This document shows positions 46,948 through 57,448 of a stretch of 64,000 nucleotides of DNA, piece by piece. Both the position numbers and the translations under genes were made by a program. Location of the stretch: the NCBI RefSeq assembly GCF_036023875.1, contig NZ_CP107931.1:3782001-3846000 (forward strand). The letters are read 5' to 3'. Positions within the stretch are counted from its first letter, which is position 1, and each line of letters opens with the position of its first letter. Under the pieces are notes generated by a model, which ran no database searches, was not told the DNA's origin, and saw only the letters and a list, made by a program, of their open reading frames with translations. The DNA is from Mycobacterium sp. NBC_00419. GTDB lineage: Bacteria > Actinomycetota > Actinomycetes > Mycobacteriales > Mycobacteriaceae.

Positions 46948-47180
46948 TGGCAGTGGGCGTCAGCGCCGGTGAACTGCGCGAACTGACCGACGACGAGTTG
47001 GCCGACAAGCTGCGTGAGTCCAAGGAAGAGCTGTTCAACCTGCGCTTCCAGATGGCCACCGGGCAGCTGGACAACAATCGCCGGCTTCGCTTGGTCCGGC
47101 AGGAAATCGCACGCATCTACACGGTGCTGCGCGAACGTGAACTGGGTCTGGCCTCCGGACCCGCTGGTGAGGAATCGTGA
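46947..47180 (+). CDS. rpmC: 50S ribosomal protein L29
   Basis: This 77-residue uL29 has the two-helix core [20 protein letters not shown] and [20 protein letters not shown]. The stop overlaps the GTG start of rpsQ. Confidence 0.97.
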
Positions 47181-47488
47181 TGGCAGAAAACCCTGCAAAA
47201 TCGGCTGGACCCAACTACACCCCGGCGACCGAGAAGCCCCGCGGCCGGCGCAAGACCGCCATCGGCTACGTGGTCAGCGACAAGATGGAGAAGACCATCG
47301 TCGTCGAGATCGAGTCGCGTGCGCAGCACCCCAAGTACGGCAAGATCATCCGGACGACCAAGAAGGTCAAGGCCCACGACGAGGACGGCGTCGCCGGTAT
47401 CGGCGACCGGGTCTCGCTGATGGAGACCCGTCCGCTGTCGGCCACCAAGCGCTGGCGGCTCGTGGATGTTCTGGAGAAGGCCAAGTAG
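47177..47488 (+). CDS. rpsQ: 30S ribosomal protein S17
   Basis: This 103-residue uS17 has the OB-fold core [37 protein letters not shown] and [20 protein letters not shown]. It starts at GTG overlapping the rpmC stop, with an ATG as the second codon being the alternative. It closes the first ribosomal block and is followed by a terminator. Confidence 0.97.
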
Positions 47489-47504
47489 GCCACGCACTTC
47501 ACGC

Positions 47505-47536
47505 AATGCCCATCACCTCACCAGGTGGTGGGCATT
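47505..47536 (+). terminator. Terminator after rpsQ
   Basis: AATGCCCATCACC (47505-47517) and GGTGGTGGGCATT (47524-47536) pair with one G-T, around a TCACCA loop, and GTTTGTT follows. This ends the S10 block before the glycan-type cluster. Nothing else is recognised in the 198-base gap up to 47686. Confidence 0.75.
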
Positions 47537-47686
47537 GTTTGTTATGGCGGCGTTGTTGTGGAGGCACGGACTCCTCCGGCATGCGCCCGCTGACCGGGCG
47601 TTTCGCTTTCGGGATAGCACGGCAGGGGCCTAAGTTGTATGTGAGACTCTTGTGAATTGACGTCCCCGTTAAGCAAGGCGAGCCCG

Positions 47687-49639
47687 ATGCCTCACGTGCA
47701 GAACAGATCATCGCGTTGGTCGGCAATGGCTGTCGCGCTGGTCGCGCTGGCCATGTGGACCGCCCCCGCGGTCACTGCCGAACCGAACGACCCTGTCGCG
47801 CTGTCGAACTCACCCGTCATCGCGCTGGTCGACATGGGTTCGAGCGCACCGCTGGCCTTCTACGGCGACCAGGGCACCGCGACCCTGACCTTCCCGGTAC
47901 CGCAGGGCCTGGTGCCGGTGGCCTTGAATGCCACCGTCGAGGTCCCGATCAACGTCGCCTCCGGCACGCTCAGTGTCACCCAGGACGACCGCACGATCGC
48001 CCGCATCCCGCTGCCGCCGGTCGATCAGGCGCCAATCGTGATCCCGCTTGTCGGGGCGGAGATCATCGACAACTCGGTGACCGTCACCCTGCGCACGTAT
48101 CTGGTCCCGGTCGAGGGCTACTGCCTGGACCCGACGAACCCGCTGCGACTCGTCAACGGTTCGGTCGCGTTCGACGGCATCGAACTGCCGCCGACCACGG
48201 TTGCCGAGTTCCTCCCGCCGGTGCTCCGCAAGCTGACGATCTCGATCCCGGCCAACCCGAGCAAGGTGGAATCCGAAGCCGCTGTCCGGTTGGCCGCGGC
48301 CACCGTCGCCCACTACGGAACCCAGACCACCACCGTCGCGGTGACCACGATCGGTTCCGGGCCGGCAGCGCCGCAGTTTCCCTTCGAGCGGGGCATCGTC
48401 ATCCAGGAGGGTCCCGACACCGGGCTGTCGCTCCAGCCGGGTGACGGCGTCATCCCCGCCCTGCGAATCTCGGGGCCTGCCAACGAACTGACCAATCAGA
48501 CGCGACTGTTGTCCTCGGACATCTCCCGGCTCGCGCTGAGCTCCAAGGCGGTTGCCGGTCCGCTGCGAATCGCCGCGCAGCTGCCCGGCAACGTGACGAC
48601 GTTGCGCGAGTTGGGCCAGAACGGGGTGACGGCCGTGGCGCTCGCGCCTCAGGTCACCGTTGGTCTGGACCAGACCCGGCTGGGCCGCTCGGCGCATAAC
48701 GTGCGGGTCCACCTGATGGGCTCCTACACTCCGGTCCCGCCTTCGGTCAGTGCCCGTCTCGTCGCCCTCGTTGGGGGAGAGACCATCGACCGCTGGCCCA
48801 CCGACACCAGCGGGGTGATCGACCGCTGGGTGAACGTGCCCGATCGGCTGTTGCAGCGCTACACCAATCTCGGAGTGGCACTCAACATCGCGGGCAACAC
48901 CGGGCGGTGCGGGGAATTCCAGCCACTCACCCTGACCGTCGACGGTGACAGCGTGGTCCAGAGCACCCCCGCCACCCCGCCGGTGCCCAGCGGGTTCCAG
49001 TCGCTGCCGCAGTCGTTGATGCCCCGGGTCCAGGTCGGCATCGGCTCCGACGCCTTCGCCGACACCGTGCGGGCCGCCACGATCATCGTCGGTCTGCAAC
49101 GGCTCAGTGCCCTGCCCATCGACGTCGCCGTCACCGACGTGCAGGCTGCCGTCAACAGCAGGTTGCCCGCGGTGATCGTCGCTGCCGACGGCTGGAAGTT
49201 CAACAAGGTCACCCTGCCCGTCAGCCCCACCAACGGCAGGCTGTCGCTGGAGGGGGTCGACAGCGCCGGTGAGCCGACCACGTTGACCCTCGACCCGGCC
49301 ATCATGTTCGGGTCCCTGCAGACGGTGTTCGACGGACAACGCTCGATGCTGGTCGCAACGTCCAACGGCGCACCCGAACAACTCGACGAGCTGCTGCGCT
49401 GGCTCAGCAGCGACCCACGTCGATGGTCGAGGCTCACCGGAACGGCGCTCGTCGCGACACCGGGCCACAGCCCGGTCACTGTGGGTCCGCAGCCGGGAGT
49501 CGCCGCCGAGGAGGCGCCAGCCGCCACCGAGGACCGCAAGACGTGGGCGTGGGCATTGGGTGGCGGCATCGTCGCCGTGGCCGCCATCGGAACCGCGTTG
49601 ATCCTGGTGCGTTCCCGCAGAGGCGAATCCGGCGACTGA
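47687..49639 (+). CDS. BcsB-like secreted/membrane-anchored protein
   Basis: This 650-residue protein has a cleavable signal peptide (about residues 1-31, ending MWTAPAVTA) and one C-terminal membrane helix (WALGGGIVAVAAIGTALILV) followed by a short basic tail. The extracytoplasmic part has a repeated beta-rich layout. FYGDQGTATLTFPVPQGLVP and a later second set suggest the BcsB family, the periplasmic partner of cellulose synthase. The ATG at 47687 gives a sensible signal peptide. A TTG 30 bases upstream is in frame. It opens a four-gene run ending with a GT2 synthase and a GT-C-type protein. Family call is moderate. Confidence 0.62.
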   Translation: MPHVQNRSSRWSAMAVALVALAMWTAPAVTAEPNDPVALSNSPVIALVDMGSSAPLAFYGDQGTATLTFPVPQGLVPVALNATVEVPINVASGTLSVTQDDRTIARIPLPPVDQAPIVIPLVGAEIIDNSVTVTLRTYLVPVEGYCLDPTNPLRLVNGSVAFDGIELPPTTVAEFLPPVLRKLTISIPANPSKVESEAAVRLAAATVAHYGTQTTTVAVTTIGSGPAAPQFPFERGIVIQEGPDTGLSLQPGDGVIPALRISGPANELTNQTRLLSSDISRLALSSKAVAGPLRIAAQLPGNVTTLRELGQNGVTAVALAPQVTVGLDQTRLGRSAHNVRVHLMGSYTPVPPSVSARLVALVGGETIDRWPTDTSGVIDRWVNVPDRLLQRYTNLGVALNIAGNTGRCGEFQPLTLTVDGDSVVQSTPATPPVPSGFQSLPQSLMPRVQVGIGSDAFADTVRAATIIVGLQRLSALPIDVAVTDVQAAVNSRLPAVIVAADGWKFNKVTLPVSPTNGRLSLEGVDSAGEPTTLTLDPAIMFGSLQTVFDGQRSMLVATSNGAPEQLDELLRWLSSDPRRWSRLTGTALVATPGHSPVTVGPQPGVAAEEAPAATEDRKTWAWALGGGIVAVAAIGTALILVRSRRGESGD

Positions 49640-49641
49640 CG

Positions 49642-51159
49642 ATGACGGCGACGGCAGCGACACCGGCGCACGTGGCCGAACCGCCCACGCCGTGGCTGCA
49701 TGGACTGCGGCCGATCTATCGGCTGGTGTTCCGGTGGGCTTTCATCGCGGTGCTGACCGTGTTCGCGTTCCACGAGTCCCTGGAATCGCTGCTCGAGTCC
49801 AGCCGGGCGGGCAGTCTCAACGGCTACGTCTGGGTGGTGCCGATGGCCGCCATCATGGCCGCCATCGGGGTAGCGCGCCGGGAGCGCACCGAACTGCCGA
49901 TCCACGACCGTCAGACCGACATCATCGTCGGCATCATCGGCATGGGCGTGGCCCTGATGGTGCACGGCGTTCTGCTGCAACGGTATGCGAGCTATTTCCA
50001 CCTGCTGCGGCTCGACCTGCTGGCCATGTGGTTCTTCGTGGTCAGTTCCAGCGTGGTGTTGTTCGGACTGCGGCCGGTGACCCGATTCGCATGGGTGTGG
50101 GCACTGCTGTTGGCCGTTTTTCCGCTGCCCTACCAGATCGTGGTCATCCTCCTCGGCGGCAGCCGGGTGGCTGCCGGCGGGGCGGTGCTGATCATCGCCG
50201 CCAGTGCCACCGCGATCGCCGTCGGCCGCACCAGAAGCCGGGCCGTGGTCGGCGCGGTGGGTTCCTGGGGTGTGGGCCTGATCGTTCTGATGGGCATGGC
50301 CGTCGTACGGCCCAACGGACCGGTGTTCGCGTTCCAGATGATTCCGTCGGTCACTGCGATCGCCCTGGTCGGGTTGGCCCTGTACTTCCGCGCGCGTCGT
50401 GGTGCCCCCAAGCGCGTCCTGGACCGCCGGATGGAACCCCTTGCCGCCAAGGAGGTCTGGTCCGGTCTGGTGTTGGTGCTGGCCGTCGCGGTCGCCTTGT
50501 CGCTGGTGTCGCTGCCCGGTAGTACCAACCCGCCGGCGACCCAGGTTTCCTGGATGACGTTCGGGCGCCCGCTGGACGCGCCGGTCGGCTGGCACACCAC
50601 TGAGCAGATCGAGTTCAACTGGGTCCGCCGGCTCTTCGGCCGCGACTCCACGCTGCTCCGCCAGGAAATGGTTGCCGATACGGGAAATCCCAAGTGGGAC
50701 AAGTTCGCCCGCCCACGCACCGTCATCGTGGACTCCACCAACACCTGGCGGCCGTTCTCCTTGAACGTCTATCCGTCCGTGGTGCTCTACGACGTCGCCT
50801 CCAGCCGGTTGAGTGAGCCGCGCCGGGTGGATCTCGGCCACGGAGTCACCGGCTTCATGTACAGCATCATCGACGACCAGCTTCTGGTGACCTGGAACAC
50901 CGTGGTATTCGAGTGGCGCAACAAGGACTCGGCGCAGCGGGTTCTGATCGGCTCGGTGGACAACCACGAGGCCGAAGCGCCGTTCCCGGAACCCAACGGC
51001 GCACTGCTGCCCACGTTGGGCACGCTGTTCACCGTGCTGTTCCGCGGTAACTCCGTCACGACCAACAAGGATCCGGAGTTCAAGGACGCCGAGATGCTCA
51101 CCCAGTTCGGCCGGGGTCTGGTGGATGCCCAACTCAAGAGCTCGGAGAGCCTGGGATGA
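49642..51159 (+). CDS. Polytopic membrane protein with exosortase-like topology and extracytoplasmic C-terminal domain
   Basis: This 505-residue protein has about nine hydrophobic helices in residues 25-290 and then a soluble domain of about 215 residues likely outside the membrane. The helix order and the segment WALLLAVFPLPYQIVVILLG resemble the N-terminal half of exosortases, and the tail is placed like the EpsI domain of exosortase fusions. However, the protein contains no cysteine, so the exosortase nucleophile is absent. It may be a structural or export subunit. It starts 2 bases after the BcsB-like gene and overlaps the GT2 gene in an ATGA junction. No firm function. Confidence 0.55.
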   Translation: MTATAATPAHVAEPPTPWLHGLRPIYRLVFRWAFIAVLTVFAFHESLESLLESSRAGSLNGYVWVVPMAAIMAAIGVARRERTELPIHDRQTDIIVGIIGMGVALMVHGVLLQRYASYFHLLRLDLLAMWFFVVSSSVVLFGLRPVTRFAWVWALLLAVFPLPYQIVVILLGGSRVAAGGAVLIIAASATAIAVGRTRSRAVVGAVGSWGVGLIVLMGMAVVRPNGPVFAFQMIPSVTAIALVGLALYFRARRGAPKRVLDRRMEPLAAKEVWSGLVLVLAVAVALSLVSLPGSTNPPATQVSWMTFGRPLDAPVGWHTTEQIEFNWVRRLFGRDSTLLRQEMVADTGNPKWDKFARPRTVIVDSTNTWRPFSLNVYPSVVLYDVASSRLSEPRRVDLGHGVTGFMYSIIDDQLLVTWNTVVFEWRNKDSAQRVLIGSVDNHEAEAPFPEPNGALLPTLGTLFTVLFRGNSVTTNKDPEFKDAEMLTQFGRGLVDAQLKSSESLG

Positions 51160-52631
51160 GCGGGCGCGCGGTGCGCAATCACGACGACGCGACCGAGGAG
51201 GAGAAGCAGCGGGCGCTGCATCGCGCGGTCGAGGGTCTGCGCGAAGACGATCCGATGCGCTCGGCCTCCAATCCGGTGATGGGCTGGCAGCGCGCGGTGC
51301 TGTGGGCGCTGTTGGTGGTGACCGTCGGCTTCGCGATCTGGGTGCCGATGCAGACCGCGGTCGCGCTGATCGGGCTGTGCACCTTCGGTTATGTGTTCAC
51401 GATGCTCGACCGGGTGCTCATCTTCAAACAGGGCCTGGCCTCTGCTGCCCTGGTGATCTCCGACGAGAAGGCCCGCGCCATCCCCGACGACCAGCTGCCC
51501 GCCTACACGATTCTGGTTCCGGCCTACAACGAACCGGAGGTGGTGGCCGACCTGCTCGGCGCCATGGCGGCCATGGAATATCCGGCGGACAAGTTGCAGG
51601 TGCTGCTGCTGCTCGAAGCTGATGACGATGTCACCATCAGGGCCGCCGAAAGCTGCGCCGACTCCGAGACGATCACCATCGTGCTCGTACCGCCGGCCGA
51701 GCCCAGGACCAAACCCAAGGCCTGCAACTACGGGCTGGAATTCGCCTCCGGTGAGATCGTCACCATCTACGACGCCGAAGACCTCCCCGAGCCGCTGCAG
51801 CTTCGCCGGGTGGCGGCGGCGTTCCGGGAACTGCCCGACAACACCGCATGTGTGCAGGCGAAACTGGCCTACCACAACGGGCACCAGAATCTGCTGACCG
51901 GATGGTTCACCGCCGAGTACGGCCTGTGGTTCGGCTATCTGCTGCCCGGCATGATGCGCAGCAATTCCCCGATCCCGCTCGGTGGCACGTCCAACCACCT
52001 CCGTCGTGACGTGCTCGACCGCATCGGTGCGTGGGATCCGTTCAACGTCACCGAGGACGCCGACCTCGGGCTGCGGATCGCCGCCTCCGGTTATCAAACG
52101 GCTGTGCTGGACTCGGTGACGCTGGAGGAGGCCAACAGCGACCCGATCAACTGGGTCCGGCAGCGCTCGCGGTGGTACAAGGGTTATCTGCAAACCTGGC
52201 TGGTCCACATCCGGCGGCCTCGGCAGTTGTTGCGCACCATCGGTATACGAAGTTTCATCCGGTTCAACCTGGTGATGGCGGGCACCCCGATCATCGCGGT
52301 GCTCAACCTGCTGTTCTGGTTCATCACGGCGCTGTGGTTCCTGGGGCAGCCGGCCGTCGTCGAGGCGGTCTTCCCCTGGTACATCTACTTTCCCGCGCTG
52401 GCGGCCCTGATCCTGGGCAATGGGGCCACGCTCTACATGAACCTGATCGCGCTGCGTGAGGATGATCGCGCGGATCTGCTGGTAGCCGGGCTGACGGTCC
52501 CGGCGTTCTTCGTGATGATGAGCGTCGCCGCGGCCAAGGGCACCTATCAGCTGATCCGCAATCCCTCGTACTGGGAGAAGACGTTCCACGGTCTGTCCCA
52601 GAAGCCGGACGCCGAGTCCGCGGTCTCATGA
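51156..52631 (+). CDS. Membrane family 2 glycosyltransferase (cellulose synthase-like)
   Basis: This 491-residue protein is a processive-type GT2. Two N-terminal helices (about residues 46-88) precede the catalytic domain with TILVPAYNEPEVV (residues 119-131), the divalent-metal motif YDAED (205-209), TEDAD (299-303) and QRSRW (336-340), the last being typical of processive synthases such as BcsA and hyaluronan synthase. Further membrane helices follow (about 365-470). No PilZ domain is present. It overlaps both neighbours by 4 bases, so it is translated together with the BcsB-like, polytopic and GT-C-type proteins. It likely polymerises or extrudes an envelope glycan. Confidence 0.85.
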   Translation: MSGRAVRNHDDATEEEKQRALHRAVEGLREDDPMRSASNPVMGWQRAVLWALLVVTVGFAIWVPMQTAVALIGLCTFGYVFTMLDRVLIFKQGLASAALVISDEKARAIPDDQLPAYTILVPAYNEPEVVADLLGAMAAMEYPADKLQVLLLLEADDDVTIRAAESCADSETITIVLVPPAEPRTKPKACNYGLEFASGEIVTIYDAEDLPEPLQLRRVAAAFRELPDNTACVQAKLAYHNGHQNLLTGWFTAEYGLWFGYLLPGMMRSNSPIPLGGTSNHLRRDVLDRIGAWDPFNVTEDADLGLRIAASGYQTAVLDSVTLEEANSDPINWVRQRSRWYKGYLQTWLVHIRRPRQLLRTIGIRSFIRFNLVMAGTPIIAVLNLLFWFITALWFLGQPAVVEAVFPWYIYFPALAALILGNGATLYMNLIALREDDRADLLVAGLTVPAFFVMMSVAAAKGTYQLIRNPSYWEKTFHGLSQKPDAESAVS

Positions 52632-54301
52632 GTGCACTCACCGATCGACGCCTCAAGATCCTGGCATGGGCCGCGACGTTCGTGCTGTACGCGGCGGTGG
52701 GCTACTGGCTGCAGGTGAAGAACGGCTTCATCCTCGGTGACGCACTGTCGAGGGTATCGGCAGCCCAAAGCGTATTGTTCAGCCGCTCACCGCATTTGGC
52801 TGCCATCGGCTTCATCTTCACCCCGTTGACCGCGATGGTGCAGATCCCGGTGATCGCGGCGAGCCCGATCTTCCCGGACCTGGCGGCGCGGGCCTTCGCC
52901 GGATCGATCATGTCCGCGGCCTTCATGGCCGGGGCGGTGGTGCAGATCCTGTCGATGGGCACCGACCGCGGCCTGCCGCGCTGGTACGCGTTGACGATCG
53001 CAGCTTTGTTCGGCCTCAACCCGATGATCATCTTCTACGGTTCCAACGGCATGAGCGAGGCGCCGTTCATCTTCTTCATCTCCTGGGCGGTGCGCCGACT
53101 GATCCTGTGGATGGTCGACGACGACGTGCACCACCTGGTCGTCGCCGGTGGCATCGCGATGGGCCTTGCCTACCTGACCCGCTATGACGCCGTCGCGTGC
53201 GTGGCGGCCGCCGGCTTCGTCGTCGGCACCACCACCTACCTGCGGGCGCGACGTCCCCCGCGAAAGCGCCGCGCCCTACTGGACCTCATGCTGGTCAGCG
53301 CTCCGGGATTCATCGCGTTCATCGGCTGGGCGGCCGCGAGCTGGCTGATCACCGGTGAGGCATTCGCCCAATTCACCTCGCAGTACGGCAATTCGGCGAT
53401 CCTTCGACAGTCCGGCGCCGAGCAGGCCGGCCCGGCCAGCGGCATGCTGTTCGCCGCCACCTGCACTCTGCTGCTGGCGCCCACCCTGATCCCGATCGGG
53501 GTGTGGGCCGGACTCATCCGCTGGCGACGGCCGAACTGGACCATGCTGATTCCGCCGCTCGCCATCTACGGTGCGGCGCTGTCCTTCCAGGCGTTCACTT
53601 TCGCGGCCGGCTCGACATTCCCGTTTCTGCGCTTCTACATCATCGCGATTCCGTTCGCGGCCTGCCTGGCAATGCTGGCCGTTCCCGACGGCGCCTTCGT
53701 GACACCGAAACGGCGCGGCCGCCACGCGCCGGCGCCCTCGCCCGTGCGCTCGACTCGCACTCGCGCCGGATACGCGGCGGTGGCACTGGCTCTCGCGGTC
53801 AGCGTGCCGGCGGCCGCCTGGGGGATGAGCCTGCCGCAGTACGCGCCCCAGGAGTACGCGCTGGGGGCGGTGATCAACCCAGCACCCGACAGCACCAGTC
53901 CGCAAAAGGCCGTCGAACATCGCATCGCCAGCACCTTCTCGACCGAACGGACGATCGCCGCCTACCTCGACGACCTCGACCTCCCGCACAGTTCGGTCAT
54001 CACCGACACCGTCTACGGCTTCGCGGTCGTCGCCGCATCGCGGCACCCGCGAACGTTCGTCGTGCCGTCGGACCCGGACTTCGTCCGGCTGCTCAACAAT
54101 CCGTCCGGCAACGGCATCAAGTACCTCCTTGCGGTGCCGCCGACGGGCCGCGGGGTGTCCGATGCCCTCAACCAGAGGTACCCGACGCTCTACGACACTG
54201 GCGCGGATGTGGCCACACTCGAGCTGGAGATCCCCAATGACGGCGTCGGCCAACCGAACTGGCGACTCTACCGGGTCAACGAACCGGTCCCCGAAGCCTG
54301 A
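52628..54301 (+). CDS. GT-C-type membrane glycosyltransferase (ArnT/PMT-like)
   Basis: This 557-residue protein has about ten membrane helices and a soluble C-terminal part of about 150 residues. The first loop contains an Asp in FILGDALSRVSAAQS, in the place of the catalytic acid of GT-C enzymes using polyprenyl-phosphate sugars. GLAYLTRYDAVACVAAA resembles the conserved loop after helix 6. It overlaps the GT2 gene in an ATGA junction and ends the four-gene run. It could glycosylate a lipid, protein or the polymer made by the GT2. Donor and acceptor are unknown. Confidence 0.65.
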   Translation: MSALTDRRLKILAWAATFVLYAAVGYWLQVKNGFILGDALSRVSAAQSVLFSRSPHLAAIGFIFTPLTAMVQIPVIAASPIFPDLAARAFAGSIMSAAFMAGAVVQILSMGTDRGLPRWYALTIAALFGLNPMIIFYGSNGMSEAPFIFFISWAVRRLILWMVDDDVHHLVVAGGIAMGLAYLTRYDAVACVAAAGFVVGTTTYLRARRPPRKRRALLDLMLVSAPGFIAFIGWAAASWLITGEAFAQFTSQYGNSAILRQSGAEQAGPASGMLFAATCTLLLAPTLIPIGVWAGLIRWRRPNWTMLIPPLAIYGAALSFQAFTFAAGSTFPFLRFYIIAIPFAACLAMLAVPDGAFVTPKRRGRHAPAPSPVRSTRTRAGYAAVALALAVSVPAAAWGMSLPQYAPQEYALGAVINPAPDSTSPQKAVEHRIASTFSTERTIAAYLDDLDLPHSSVITDTVYGFAVVAASRHPRTFVVPSDPDFVRLLNNPSGNGIKYLLAVPPTGRGVSDALNQRYPTLYDTGADVATLELEIPNDGVGQPNWRLYRVNEPVPEA

Positions 54302-54373: not shown

Positions 54374-56722
54374 ATGGCAGCGGAATTCAACGGCAAGGTC
54401 GAACTCGACATTCGCGACTCCGAACCGGACTGGGGGCCGTATGCCGCGCCGAAGGCGCCAGAGAACGCACCCAACGTCCTGTACGTAGTGTGGGACGACG
54501 TCGGCATCGCCACCTGGGACTGCTTCGGCGGATTGGTCGACATGCCCGCGATGTCGCGGATCGCCGAGCATGGTGTCCGTTTCTCGCAGTTCCACACCTC
54601 CGCGCTCTGCTCGCCGACTCGGGCCGCGCTGCTGACCGGACGCAACCCCACCACCGTGGGCATGGCGATGGTCGAAGAGTTCACCGAGGGCTTCCCGGGT
54701 AACAACGGGCGCATCCCCGACGAGACCGCGCTGATCTCCGAAGTGCTGGCCGAGCGGGGCTGGAACACCTACTGCGTCGGCAAGTGGCACCTGACCCCCA
54801 TCGAGGAGTCCAATCTGGCTGCGACACGGCGGCATTGGCCGCTGTCGCGCGGGTTCGAACGGTTCTACGGATTCCTGGGCGGCGAGACCGACCAGTGGTA
54901 TCCCGAACTGGTCTACGACAACCATCCGGTGGAGGCGCCCGCGACACCGGAGGAGGGCTACCACCTGTCGAAAGATCTCGCGGACAAGACCATCGAGTTC
55001 ATTCGCGACTCCACGATGGTTGCCCCGGACAAGCCGTGGTTCACCTATCTGTGCCCTGGTGCCGGTCACGCCCCGCACCACGTCTTCAAGGAATGGGCCG
55101 ACAAATACGCCGGCCGGTTCGACATGGGCTACGAGGACTACCGCGACATCGTGCTGGCGAACCAGAAGAAGCTCGGCATCGTCCCGCCCGACACCGAACT
55201 GTCCGGGGTCAACCCGTACGCCGACGTCACCGGACCCAACGGCGAACCGTGGCCGCTGCAGGACACGGTGCGGCCGTGGGATTCGTTGTCCGACGACGAG
55301 AAGCGGCTGTTCGCCAGGATGGCAGAGGTGTTCGCGGGCTTCCTGTCCTACACCGACGCCCAGATCGGCCGGGTACTGGACTACCTCGAGGAGTCTGGGC
55401 AGCTGGACAACACCATCATCGTGGTGATCTCCGACAACGGCGCCAGCGGCGAAGGCGGCCCCAACGGATCGGTCAACGAAGCCAAATTCTTCAACGGCTT
55501 CATCGACACCGCCGAGGAGAGCCTGCGGTTCTTCGACGAATTGGGTTCTCCCGCAACCTACAATCACTACCCGATCGGGTGGGCGATGGCGTTTAACACG
55601 CCCTACAAGCTCTACAAGCGCTACGCCTCCCATGAAGGTGGCATTGCAGACACCGCAATAGTGTCCTGGCCCAACGGAATCAAGGCCCACGGTGAGGTGC
55701 GGGACAACTACGTCAACGTCGCCGACATCACCCCGACCATCTACGAGCTGTTGGGAATCGAACCGCCGCAGACCGTTCGAGGTATCGCCCAGAAGCCGCT
55801 TGACGGAGTGAGTTTCAAAGCCGCCCTTGAGGATCCGAACGCCAACACCGGCAAGGACACCCAGTTCTACACGATGCTGGGCACCCGGGGTATCTGGCAC
55901 GACGGCTGGTTCGCCAACACCGTGCACCCCGCTGCACCGTCGGGGTGGTCGCACTTCGCCGATGACAGCTGGGAGCTCTACCACATCGAGTCCGACCGCA
56001 GTCAGTGCCGCGACCTGGCCGCCGAGCATCCGGAGAAGCTCGAGGAGCTCAAGGCGATGTGGTTCGCCGAGGCGCACAAGTACAACGGACTGCCCCTGTC
56101 CGACCTCAACGTCTTCGAGATGGTCGGGCGCTGGCGGCCCGGCCTCGCCGGCGACCGGTCGAGCTACATCTATTACCCGCACACCGCCCCGGTGGCGATG
56201 GGCGCCTGCGTGATGATCGGGGGTCGCTCCTTCTCGGTCCTGGCCGACGTGACCGTCGATGGCCCCGATGTGGAAGGCGTGATCCTCAAACAAGGCGCCG
56301 GCCACGGCGGCTACGTGCTGTTCGTCGCCGACGGGAGGTTGCAGTTCGTCTACAACTTCTTCGGCGAGGAGGAGCAGCGGGTGATGGCACCCGACCCGGT
56401 GCCGCTGGGCCACCACATCCTCGGTGTCGGCTATTCGCGCACCGGGGTGGAGGGCACCCACACGCCCGTCGGGGACGCCACCCTCTACGTCGACGGTGCC
56501 GCGGTGGCGACGCTGCCGGGTGTGAAGGCGCATCCCTTCACATTCGGGTTGGCCGGCGGTGGGGTCAGCGTGGGCCGCAATCTGGGCCAGCCGGTGTCGA
56601 CGGCCTACCGGGCGCCGTTCGAGTTCCGCGGTGGCTCCATCCACCGTGTCGTCGTCGATGTCTCCGGAAGCGCCTACATCGACGCCGAGCGTCAACTCGC
56701 CGCGGCTTTCGCCCGGGACTGA
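54374..56722 (+). CDS. atsA: Arylsulfatase
   Basis: This 782-residue enzyme hydrolyses sulfate esters. The sulfatase signature SALCSPTRAALLTGRNP has Cys79, which must be converted to formylglycine (CxPxR context C79-S-P-T-R83). Metal ligands include Asp41-Asp42 in VVWDDVG and the later VVISDNGASGEGG. GKWHLTP is the second family signature. A C-terminal beta-rich region of about 200 residues follows. Length and order match AtsA (Rv0711). The required formylglycine-generating enzyme is two genes downstream. Confidence 0.95.
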   Translation: MAAEFNGKVELDIRDSEPDWGPYAAPKAPENAPNVLYVVWDDVGIATWDCFGGLVDMPAMSRIAEHGVRFSQFHTSALCSPTRAALLTGRNPTTVGMAMVEEFTEGFPGNNGRIPDETALISEVLAERGWNTYCVGKWHLTPIEESNLAATRRHWPLSRGFERFYGFLGGETDQWYPELVYDNHPVEAPATPEEGYHLSKDLADKTIEFIRDSTMVAPDKPWFTYLCPGAGHAPHHVFKEWADKYAGRFDMGYEDYRDIVLANQKKLGIVPPDTELSGVNPYADVTGPNGEPWPLQDTVRPWDSLSDDEKRLFARMAEVFAGFLSYTDAQIGRVLDYLEESGQLDNTIIVVISDNGASGEGGPNGSVNEAKFFNGFIDTAEESLRFFDELGSPATYNHYPIGWAMAFNTPYKLYKRYASHEGGIADTAIVSWPNGIKAHGEVRDNYVNVADITPTIYELLGIEPPQTVRGIAQKPLDGVSFKAALEDPNANTGKDTQFYTMLGTRGIWHDGWFANTVHPAAPSGWSHFADDSWELYHIESDRSQCRDLAAEHPEKLEELKAMWFAEAHKYNGLPLSDLNVFEMVGRWRPGLAGDRSSYIYYPHTAPVAMGACVMIGGRSFSVLADVTVDGPDVEGVILKQGAGHGGYVLFVADGRLQFVYNFFGEEEQRVMAPDPVPLGHHILGVGYSRTGVEGTHTPVGDATLYVDGAAVATLPGVKAHPFTFGLAGGGVSVGRNLGQPVSTAYRAPFEFRGGSIHRVVVDVSGSAYIDAERQLAAAFARD

Positions 56723-56743: not shown

Positions 56744-57448
56744 GTGACTCGGCTGGTGTGGGCCGCCTCGGCGGTGGTGATGCTGGCCGTCCCGTTTGTT
56801 GCCGGCTGCGACCGCGACAGCGCGGGAAGCGCAGTCCGCGGCGAGTCGTCGGTCTCGGTGTCGGCCACGACCACCACGACGACGCCGGGCTCCGCGACGG
56901 CAACCGACACCCCGGAGTCCTCGGAACCCGGGGTGGTGGAGACCACTCGGGTCCCGGTTGCGCCGAATGCGACGGTCTGCCCTCAGACGCCGGCCGGACC
57001 GACCACGGTGGCGGCGGTGGCCGATCCGGCCGCCCCCACGATCACCGTCGCCGTCCCCGACGGGTGGACCGCGAGCCCCGGTGCCGGCGAGGTCGGAGCC
57101 CGGCTGGCCGGCCCGGACGAGATGCAAGCCGAGATCAGGATCACCGCCACCCCGCTGGACCCCGCCGCCGCGTTCGGCAGGTACTCCGACGACCTGATGG
57201 CCAAGTACCCGATCAGCACGCTGAGCCTGCTGCCGGCCGACCTGTGCGGCTTCAGCGGGCAGAAGCTGATGGGCACCTGGGCCGACGACCCCGACGAGTC
57301 GATTCAGTACCAGGACCGGATCGCGCACATCTGGACCAACTCGAAGAACTACCTGGTCGCCATCCATGTCGAAGCACCCTCGGGCGCACCAGGTTTCGAT
57401 GCCGCAGCTGACGAGCTGACCGGTGACTTCGGCATCGTCATACCCTGA
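56744..57448 (+). CDS. Lipoprotein, LpqN-like
   Basis: This 234-residue protein has a lipoprotein signal (lipobox FVAGC, Cys22), a Thr/Ser-rich linker with seven consecutive Thr-rich residues (SATTTTTTPG), and a globular domain of about 160 residues (ITVAVPDGWTASPGAG, YQDRIAHIWTNSKNYLVAIH). The domain resembles the LpqN/LpqT/Mtc28 family, whose role is unknown. It sits between arylsulfatase and its activating enzyme with short gaps. It may therefore work with sulfated substrates at the envelope, but this is only inferred. Confidence 0.7.
   Translation: MTRLVWAASAVVMLAVPFVAGCDRDSAGSAVRGESSVSVSATTTTTTPGSATATDTPESSEPGVVETTRVPVAPNATVCPQTPAGPTTVAAVADPAAPTITVAVPDGWTASPGAGEVGARLAGPDEMQAEIRITATPLDPAAAFGRYSDDLMAKYPISTLSLLPADLCGFSGQKLMGTWADDPDESIQYQDRIAHIWTNSKNYLVAIHVEAPSGAPGFDAAADELTGDFGIVIP

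Follow-up and report, generated by a model that had tools for sequence, protein, structure and literature searches.

The four genes and the families of their products

The window analysed here, a stretch of 64,000 nucleotides of Mycobacterium sp. NBC_00419 (G000:C1:3782001-3846000, where G000 is the window genome), carries on its plus strand a block of four genes, designated A to D, which probably encode one synthase-dependent machine that assembles and exports a beta-linked surface polysaccharide and that includes a pseudo-exosortase subunit. Gene A (47687..49639, + strand, with an ATG start and a TGA end) encodes a BcsB-like exported protein of 650 amino acids with a C-terminal membrane helix; an in-frame TTG is also present at 47657, 5' of the ATG at 47687. 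Gene B (49642..51159, + strand) encodes the pseudo-exosortase, 505 amino acids long, in which a polytopic domain is joined to an extracytoplasmic C-terminal domain, gene C (51156..52631, + strand) a processive-type family 2 glycosyltransferase (GT2) of 491 amino acids without PilZ, and gene D (52628..54301, + strand) a GT-C-type, PMT_2-like membrane glycosyltransferase of 557 amino acids. The open frames of A and B are separated by a 2-base gap, those of B and C share a 4-base ATGA overlap and those of C and D a 4-base overlap, so that the gene order, the spacing and the site between rpsQ and atsA are exactly those given by an earlier, sequence-only reading of this DNA.

That reading had called the first gene product BcsB-like and had set structure prediction as the test beforehand. 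An AlphaFold2 model of A (predicted local distance difference test score 82.2, predicted template-modelling score 0.78) was compared with the PDB by Foldseek, and the top 22 rows were all BcsB or bacterial cellulose synthase chains, the best being 9fmt_E (E 7.9e-29, prob 1.00, template-modelling (TM) score 0.57). These rows span E 7.9e-29 to 8.2e-21 and TM scores of 0.45 to 0.58, and the next best row stands at 1.9e-7; from this ranking, A is predicted to adopt the BcsB fold along its full length, which bears out the BcsB-like call. Hydrophobic segments lie at residues 11-31 and 620-643. The Pfam BcsB family PF03170 is matched, weakly, by 10 of 34 A relatives (best 4.6e-5), and a PDB sequence-profile search with A gave zero matches. 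The closest protein in a public set, from Mycobacterium sp. DL592, is 92 per cent identical and bears the automatic name cellulose biosynthesis cyclic di-GMP-binding regulatory protein BcsB.

Gene C was likewise correctly described as a processive-type GT2 with QRSRW. It matches PF13641 at 8.9e-28, and BcsA structures are the closest solved relatives in a PDB search with the C family profile (E 2e-17). The motifs EADDD, YDAED, TED and QRSRW stand at the places expected for the D,D,D,QxxRW of processive GT2 enzymes, and TED, QRSRW and KPKACN are invariant in 22 rows. Pfam finds GT2 families only, in agreement with the earlier statement that PilZ is missing, and the FFCGS, PilZ and CelA tests of a cellulose synthase all fail: the stretch aligned with the FFCGS of BcsA, which we take to be the acceptor motif of cellulose synthases, reads PLGGTSNH, and the score against TIGR03030 CelA is 75.6 bits, with a cut-off of 699.1. 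C is a BcsA-like GT2 with processive-type motifs, which would work as BcsA does without necessarily being a cellulose synthase.

The product of gene D is polytopic, with about 10 hydrophobic segments, several of which overlap. PF13231 (PMT_2) is matched by 14 of 22 D relatives (best 1.6e-7) and PF02366 (PMT) by five of the 22, which sustains the earlier assignment to the GT-C type, the window protein itself having no Pfam family match. A PDB profile search with D gave no solved relative at E below 0.1 and one match at E 0.14; D38 and R42 are invariant in 22 rows. The GT-C class uses polyprenyl-phosphate sugars, and it is from its GT-C/PMT class that D is likely to be an enzyme using such a donor.

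Judged by its sequence, B is an exosortase homologue that has lost its catalytic motifs. Alignment of B by hhalign gave 97 per cent over 407 columns with the exosortase of locus L128, and 95 and 90 per cent over 123 and 130 columns with a five-member exosortase set; in hmmsearch the B family reached two exosortases at 47.5 and 87.9 bits and a third at 146 bits, and plain BLAST of B against L128 gave no match. The homology to the exosortases of L134, L137 and L138 covers their N-terminal membrane half as well as their C-terminal domain. The exosortase-like topology noted in the sequence-only reading is thus a real likeness and in fact a remote homology, but the catalytic C-x-G, N-x-x-R and H-x-x-x-G, all present in L134, L137 and L138, are all absent in 11 of 11 B rows. 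It should be noted that the Arg-His stretch of these rows is hard to align, and that the row of L083 holds a lone His in the His column. Window B contains zero cysteines, and among 34 B proteins no column reaches 85 per cent Cys.

Family and fold searches of B were largely negative. PF09721 has no match in the window genome, NCBIfam has none for window B, and TIGR04178 is absent from the families listed for the 11 members of the B alignment (A12), one of which matches XrtD TIGR04152 at E 0.93. Foldseek of B returned 0 matches at E 0.001 or better, and the VIA-align rows for B fall mainly on its C-terminal domain, so that fold comparison says little about the membrane part. With the catalytic motifs absent from B, an active exosortase in the window was rejected. 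Genes for cargo with a sorting signal were not noticed next to the block in the window, where no systematic search for them was made.

Conservation of the block

A scan of named-species genomes with the D alignment gave 176 loci, and the 80 best of these were taken for the locus counts. A, B, C and D occur together on one strand in 73 of the 80, and their adjacency is therefore beyond chance; this neighbourhood survey bears out the expectation that the four genes co-occur in other genomes. Among the seven incomplete loci, six begin at a contig end and have D no more than 3.1 kb from it, and the remaining one, L026, a metagenome bin, has D alone. The block is found in Mycobacterium/Mycolicibacterium, Williamsia, Gordonia, Nocardia and Rhodococcus, and in M. 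neoaurum ATCC 25795 (L050) its order is B-A-C-D. Two records labelled Kitasatospora and Acidobacteria (L066 and L077) hold copies whose similarity to the window is roughly that of the Williamsia muralis and Mycobacterium copies, and these assemblies are possibly mislabelled or contaminated.

Upstream of the block, rpsQ is found in 36 of the 80 loci; atsA lies within 1 kb downstream in 23, and both flank it in 18. No rpsQ or atsA match was seen at the Williamsia, Gordonia, Nocardia and Rhodococcus loci. In M. tuberculosis we take rpsQ and atsA to be adjacent. The block is accessory, as had been proposed: in a genus sample of 148 genomes, D is present in only 45. The sample holds 55 D places, from which five fragments were dropped, and 47 of the 50 longer places have an A start within 7 kb. 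Carriage on known plasmids is unsupported, A and D having zero matches in PLSDB.

A second, more distant type of block has the order B-C-A-D. In L018, L019 and L020 its neighbour is a pta-like gene, and in L018 and L020 an fgd1-like gene flanks it at the opposite end; in L013 and L016 there are exopolysaccharide-type genes nearby, and the end of the stretch truncates the B of L016. These neighbour names were read from the sequences. The fgd1-pta locus of M. smegmatis was considered as a cluster site and dropped without a sequence test, the literature on MSMEG_0778 to 0782, as far as its accessible portions go, being concerned with nitrogen response, GntR regulators and survival in macrophages.

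Gene A also occurs without C or D nearby, between rpsQ and atsA in L009 and L011, and near other polysaccharide-type genes. In 12 of 20 mycobacterial loci fetched (L101 to L104, L107 to L111, L113, L114 and L120), an A without a GT2 neighbour stands beside a TetR-like gene and metG-tatD-rpfB-like genes. The possibility that this metG-adjacent A is Rv1006 of M. tuberculosis was rejected, on the basis of a published peptide and a listing and without alignment of Rv1006: the peptide, in the part of PMC8006519 that was available, resembles a lipoprotein start, unlike A, and Rv1006 is listed as a glycosyl transferase in the corresponding part of PMC3087520.

As regards the surroundings of the block in the window, rpsQ lies upstream at 47177-47488, and between it and gene A there is a terminator-like stem-loop (47503..47538, + strand) of 16 pairs with a loop of 4 and a T-rich tail, which is a consensus match only; from this stem-loop, transcription of the ribosomal operon probably does not run on into the block. 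Downstream follow an arylsulfatase frame (54374-56722, PF00884), a small lipoprotein-like frame and an FGE-type enzyme. The lipoprotein-like frame, at 56744-57448 between the sulfatase and the FGE gene, has a weak match (E 0.0046, far below the cut-off) to LpqN, whose fold class is also the one suggested for the end of gene B.

A linked hydrolase and related modules

The 80 loci include 29 from outside the mycobacteria, of which 24 were examined, L064, L066, L069, L081 and L086 being omitted as near-duplicates or short. Frame clustering found a secreted protein of about 385 amino acids in 20 of these 24; it directly adjoins the block in 19 loci, 15 times behind D and 4 times before A, and in L096 it lies about 5 kb behind D. 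In one of four proteins tested it matches PF00150 (GH5, a family named Cellulase) at 21.0 bits, below the cut-off of 23.5. A profile search of the PDB at E 0.01 gave 11 structures, all of them named mannanase, mannan mannosidase or, for one entry, mannosyl-oligosaccharide glucosidase or Man5A, and a single-sequence search also reached a putative beta-xylosidase at E 0.047. Among the 120 of 231 matches listed, automatic annotation, if it names a relative at all, mostly calls it beta-mannosidase, mannan endo-1,4-beta-mannosidase or hypothetical protein. E204, within GEPE, and E317 are invariant in 10 rows and may be the catalytic residues.

The hydrolase occurs in 10 of the 148 genus genomes (E 1e-10), all with the block, and all 10 are among the 25 with a close type of D, defined by a cut of 752 bits or more chosen in this analysis. 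The association with close-type D has a Fisher p of 3.2e-9, and that with all 45 genomes carrying any D one of 3.1e-6, neither being corrected for kinship. The window genome has a homologue of 53 per cent identity at G000:C1:37355-38440 (L124:7356-8441), far from the block. The claim that the system has no BcsZ is accordingly correct for the block itself, but it does not extend to the genome, in which this unlinked gene is a candidate BcsZ-like hydrolase. In an order sample of 121 genomes the hydrolase was found in 10, at 11 places; in six regions, which together take in 7 of these places, C and D are its neighbours in four (L138, L139, L141 and L142) and not in two (L140, a short contig, and L143, a weak match). 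L142 is apparently the same contig as the named locus L081.

Two of these regions relate the module to exosortases. L138 comes from another family of the order; there, an exosortase that has all three motifs is found next to D, C and two hydrolase genes (L138:4889-19263), D and C being 35 per cent and 46.5 per cent identical to the window proteins. The same region encodes two secreted frames ending VPEAA or VPEIP, with a hydrophobic stretch and Arg residues; these tails were read by eye, and NCBIfam gave no sorting-signal match above cut-off for the two frames. In L139 (L139:8807-14647) the order is hydrolase-B-C-D, and B has Leu in the Cys column and has kept the Arg, which makes L139 a possible intermediate in motif loss. 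These arrangements suggest, without proving, that the C-D-hydrolase module originally operated together with an active exosortase and that the versions now accompanied by A are those in which the motifs were lost.

Proposed function and alternative explanations

In the machine that we propose, C would build the chain from sugar nucleotides on the inner side of the membrane and extrude it, as BcsA does, and A would receive or guide it on the outer face, as BcsB does. B, exosortase-derived and non-catalytic, could serve as a membrane scaffold or as a chain-handling partner, and D would add or transfer sugars from its polyprenyl-phosphate donor at the outer face. The secreted GH5-like, mannanase-like hydrolase, unlinked in the window genome, may trim or release the product, as BcsZ does in cellulose systems. 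The folds and families, the gene unit, the motif loss and the link to the hydrolase come from sequence comparison or modelling; that the four products form a complex and that the steps follow one another in this way, we infer. Our leading guess for the polymer, made because of the hydrolase only, is a mannan or glucomannan, that is, a beta-mannan- or glucomannan-like chain.

The known system that comes into question as a template is the BcsA-BcsB cellulose synthase. The block resembles it in the full-length BcsB fold predicted for A, in a membrane GT2 with D,D,D,QxxRW and in a secreted glycoside hydrolase linked by neighbourhood and co-occurrence, as is BcsZ, which belongs to cellulose operons. 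It differs in that C is without PilZ and has FFCGS replaced, in that the block has no BcsC-like gene and two extra subunits, B and D, and in that its hydrolase is GH5-like and mannanase-like. That the block is nevertheless a true cellulose synthase, with C and A as BcsA and BcsB and beta-1,4-glucan as the missing source of mycobacterial biofilm cellulose, we regard as unlikely. It would fit the fold of A, the position of BcsA as the closest PDB relative of C and the automatic name of the 92 per cent identical A protein, as well as reports of cellulose in mycobacterial biofilms for which, in the available parts of PMC6364259 and PMC7952908, the synthase is not identified. The failed PilZ and FFCGS tests and a CelA score far under its cut-off argue against it, as does a hydrolase that is nearest to mannanases among solved structures, though its one sub-cut-off Pfam match is to the family named Cellulase.

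Mycobacterial biofilms have been reported to contain cellulose and other exopolysaccharides, with the machinery stated to be unknown: the accessible text of PMC6364259 describes the pathway as yet to be identified and that of PMC12167362 describes the synthesis machinery as uncharacterised (see also PMC7952908). Putative cellulose-synthase components are mentioned for M. neoaurum and M. cosmeticum, and M. tuberculosis seems not to encode BcsA or BcsB, in those portions of PMC6364259 and PMC7952908 that could be consulted. Our search found nothing on Mycobacterium with BcsB and an exosortase together, and no description of this block among the matches listed.

The block might instead make a lipid- or wall-linked glycoconjugate, with C and then D acting on a lipid carrier or lipoglycan, no long polymer being exported and A merely binding the glycan. 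The assignment of D to a class that uses polyprenyl-phosphate sugars is in keeping with this, and many mycobacterial lipoglycans are made in this manner; nonetheless QRSRW and TED, together with a partner of the BcsB type, are signs of a synthase that is processive and extrudes its chain, and a linked secreted endo-type hydrolase suits a polymer, so we consider a glycoconjugate improbable.

Exosortases (EpsH) with an EpsI-like C-terminal domain form the second point of comparison. B is homologous to both halves of the L134, L137 and L138 exosortases but has lost C-x-G, N-x-x-R and H-x-x-x-G, and its C-terminal domain is likened to EpsI, with no claim of identity; EpsI regions fused to EpsH are described in the part of PMC1569441 that was available. 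That B is an active exosortase attaching cargo proteins to a C/D glycan is very hard to credit: its homology to exosortases and the L138 module, with its motif-complete exosortase and two VPE-tailed secreted proteins (read by eye), speak for it, but the catalytic Cys and Arg and H-x-x-x-G are missing in every B row, L083 having just its lone His in that column, and window B is free of cysteine, as is the 34-member set of any column with 85 per cent Cys or more. The glycosyltransferase systems associated with XrtG and XrtP (TIGR03111 and NF053846) likewise pair an exosortase-family protein with a GT2 broadly of the class of C, but C scores far under their NCBIfam cut-offs (30.0 bits against 364 and 29.5 against 520). 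We know of no BcsB partner in those systems. We class the block neither as a cellulose synthase nor as an exosortase system, and regard it as a variant of the synthase-dependent exopolysaccharide systems.

Several observations weigh against a single four-part polysaccharide machine. PF03170 matches neither window A nor anything else in the window genome. In the genus sample A is present in 90 of 148 genomes and D in 45, and A may therefore have partners outside the four-gene unit. Gene B is duplicated upstream of A (B-A-B-C-D) in L031, L036, L044, L053, L054, L055, L057 and L080, L054 being A-B-A-B-C-D, and has moved before A (B-A-C-D) in L047, L050, L059, L062 and L067, all from Mycobacterium/Mycolicibacterium. 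No recognisable A was found in 20 kb of L138 or in 19 kb of L139, so that A is not needed beside every version of the C-D-hydrolase module. Finally, of the 25 genomes with close-type D, 15 lack the hydrolase.

The polysaccharide machine may also have a history, which we offer tentatively and think doubtful as it stands, in which an exosortase gave up catalysis to become a subunit of a BcsB-driven glycan exporter. The module would first have operated with an active exosortase, perhaps anchoring cargo to the C/D glycan as in L138; the Cys would then have been lost, as in L139, and A recruited in ancestors of Mycobacterium, Rhodococcus, Nocardia, Gordonia and Williamsia. If this were true, the glycan would be the acceptor that has long been sought for this exosortase branch, and the block of the mycobacteria would represent a widespread and undescribed beta-glycan pathway across the mycomembrane.

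Apart from its possible origin, the block is a concrete candidate BcsAB-like synthase that is widespread among environmental mycobacteria and their relatives. An exosortase scaffold without catalytic motifs inside a glycan synthase operon would bear on the question of which glycan exosortases work with, and the linked hydrolase could serve as a tool for identifying the polymer.

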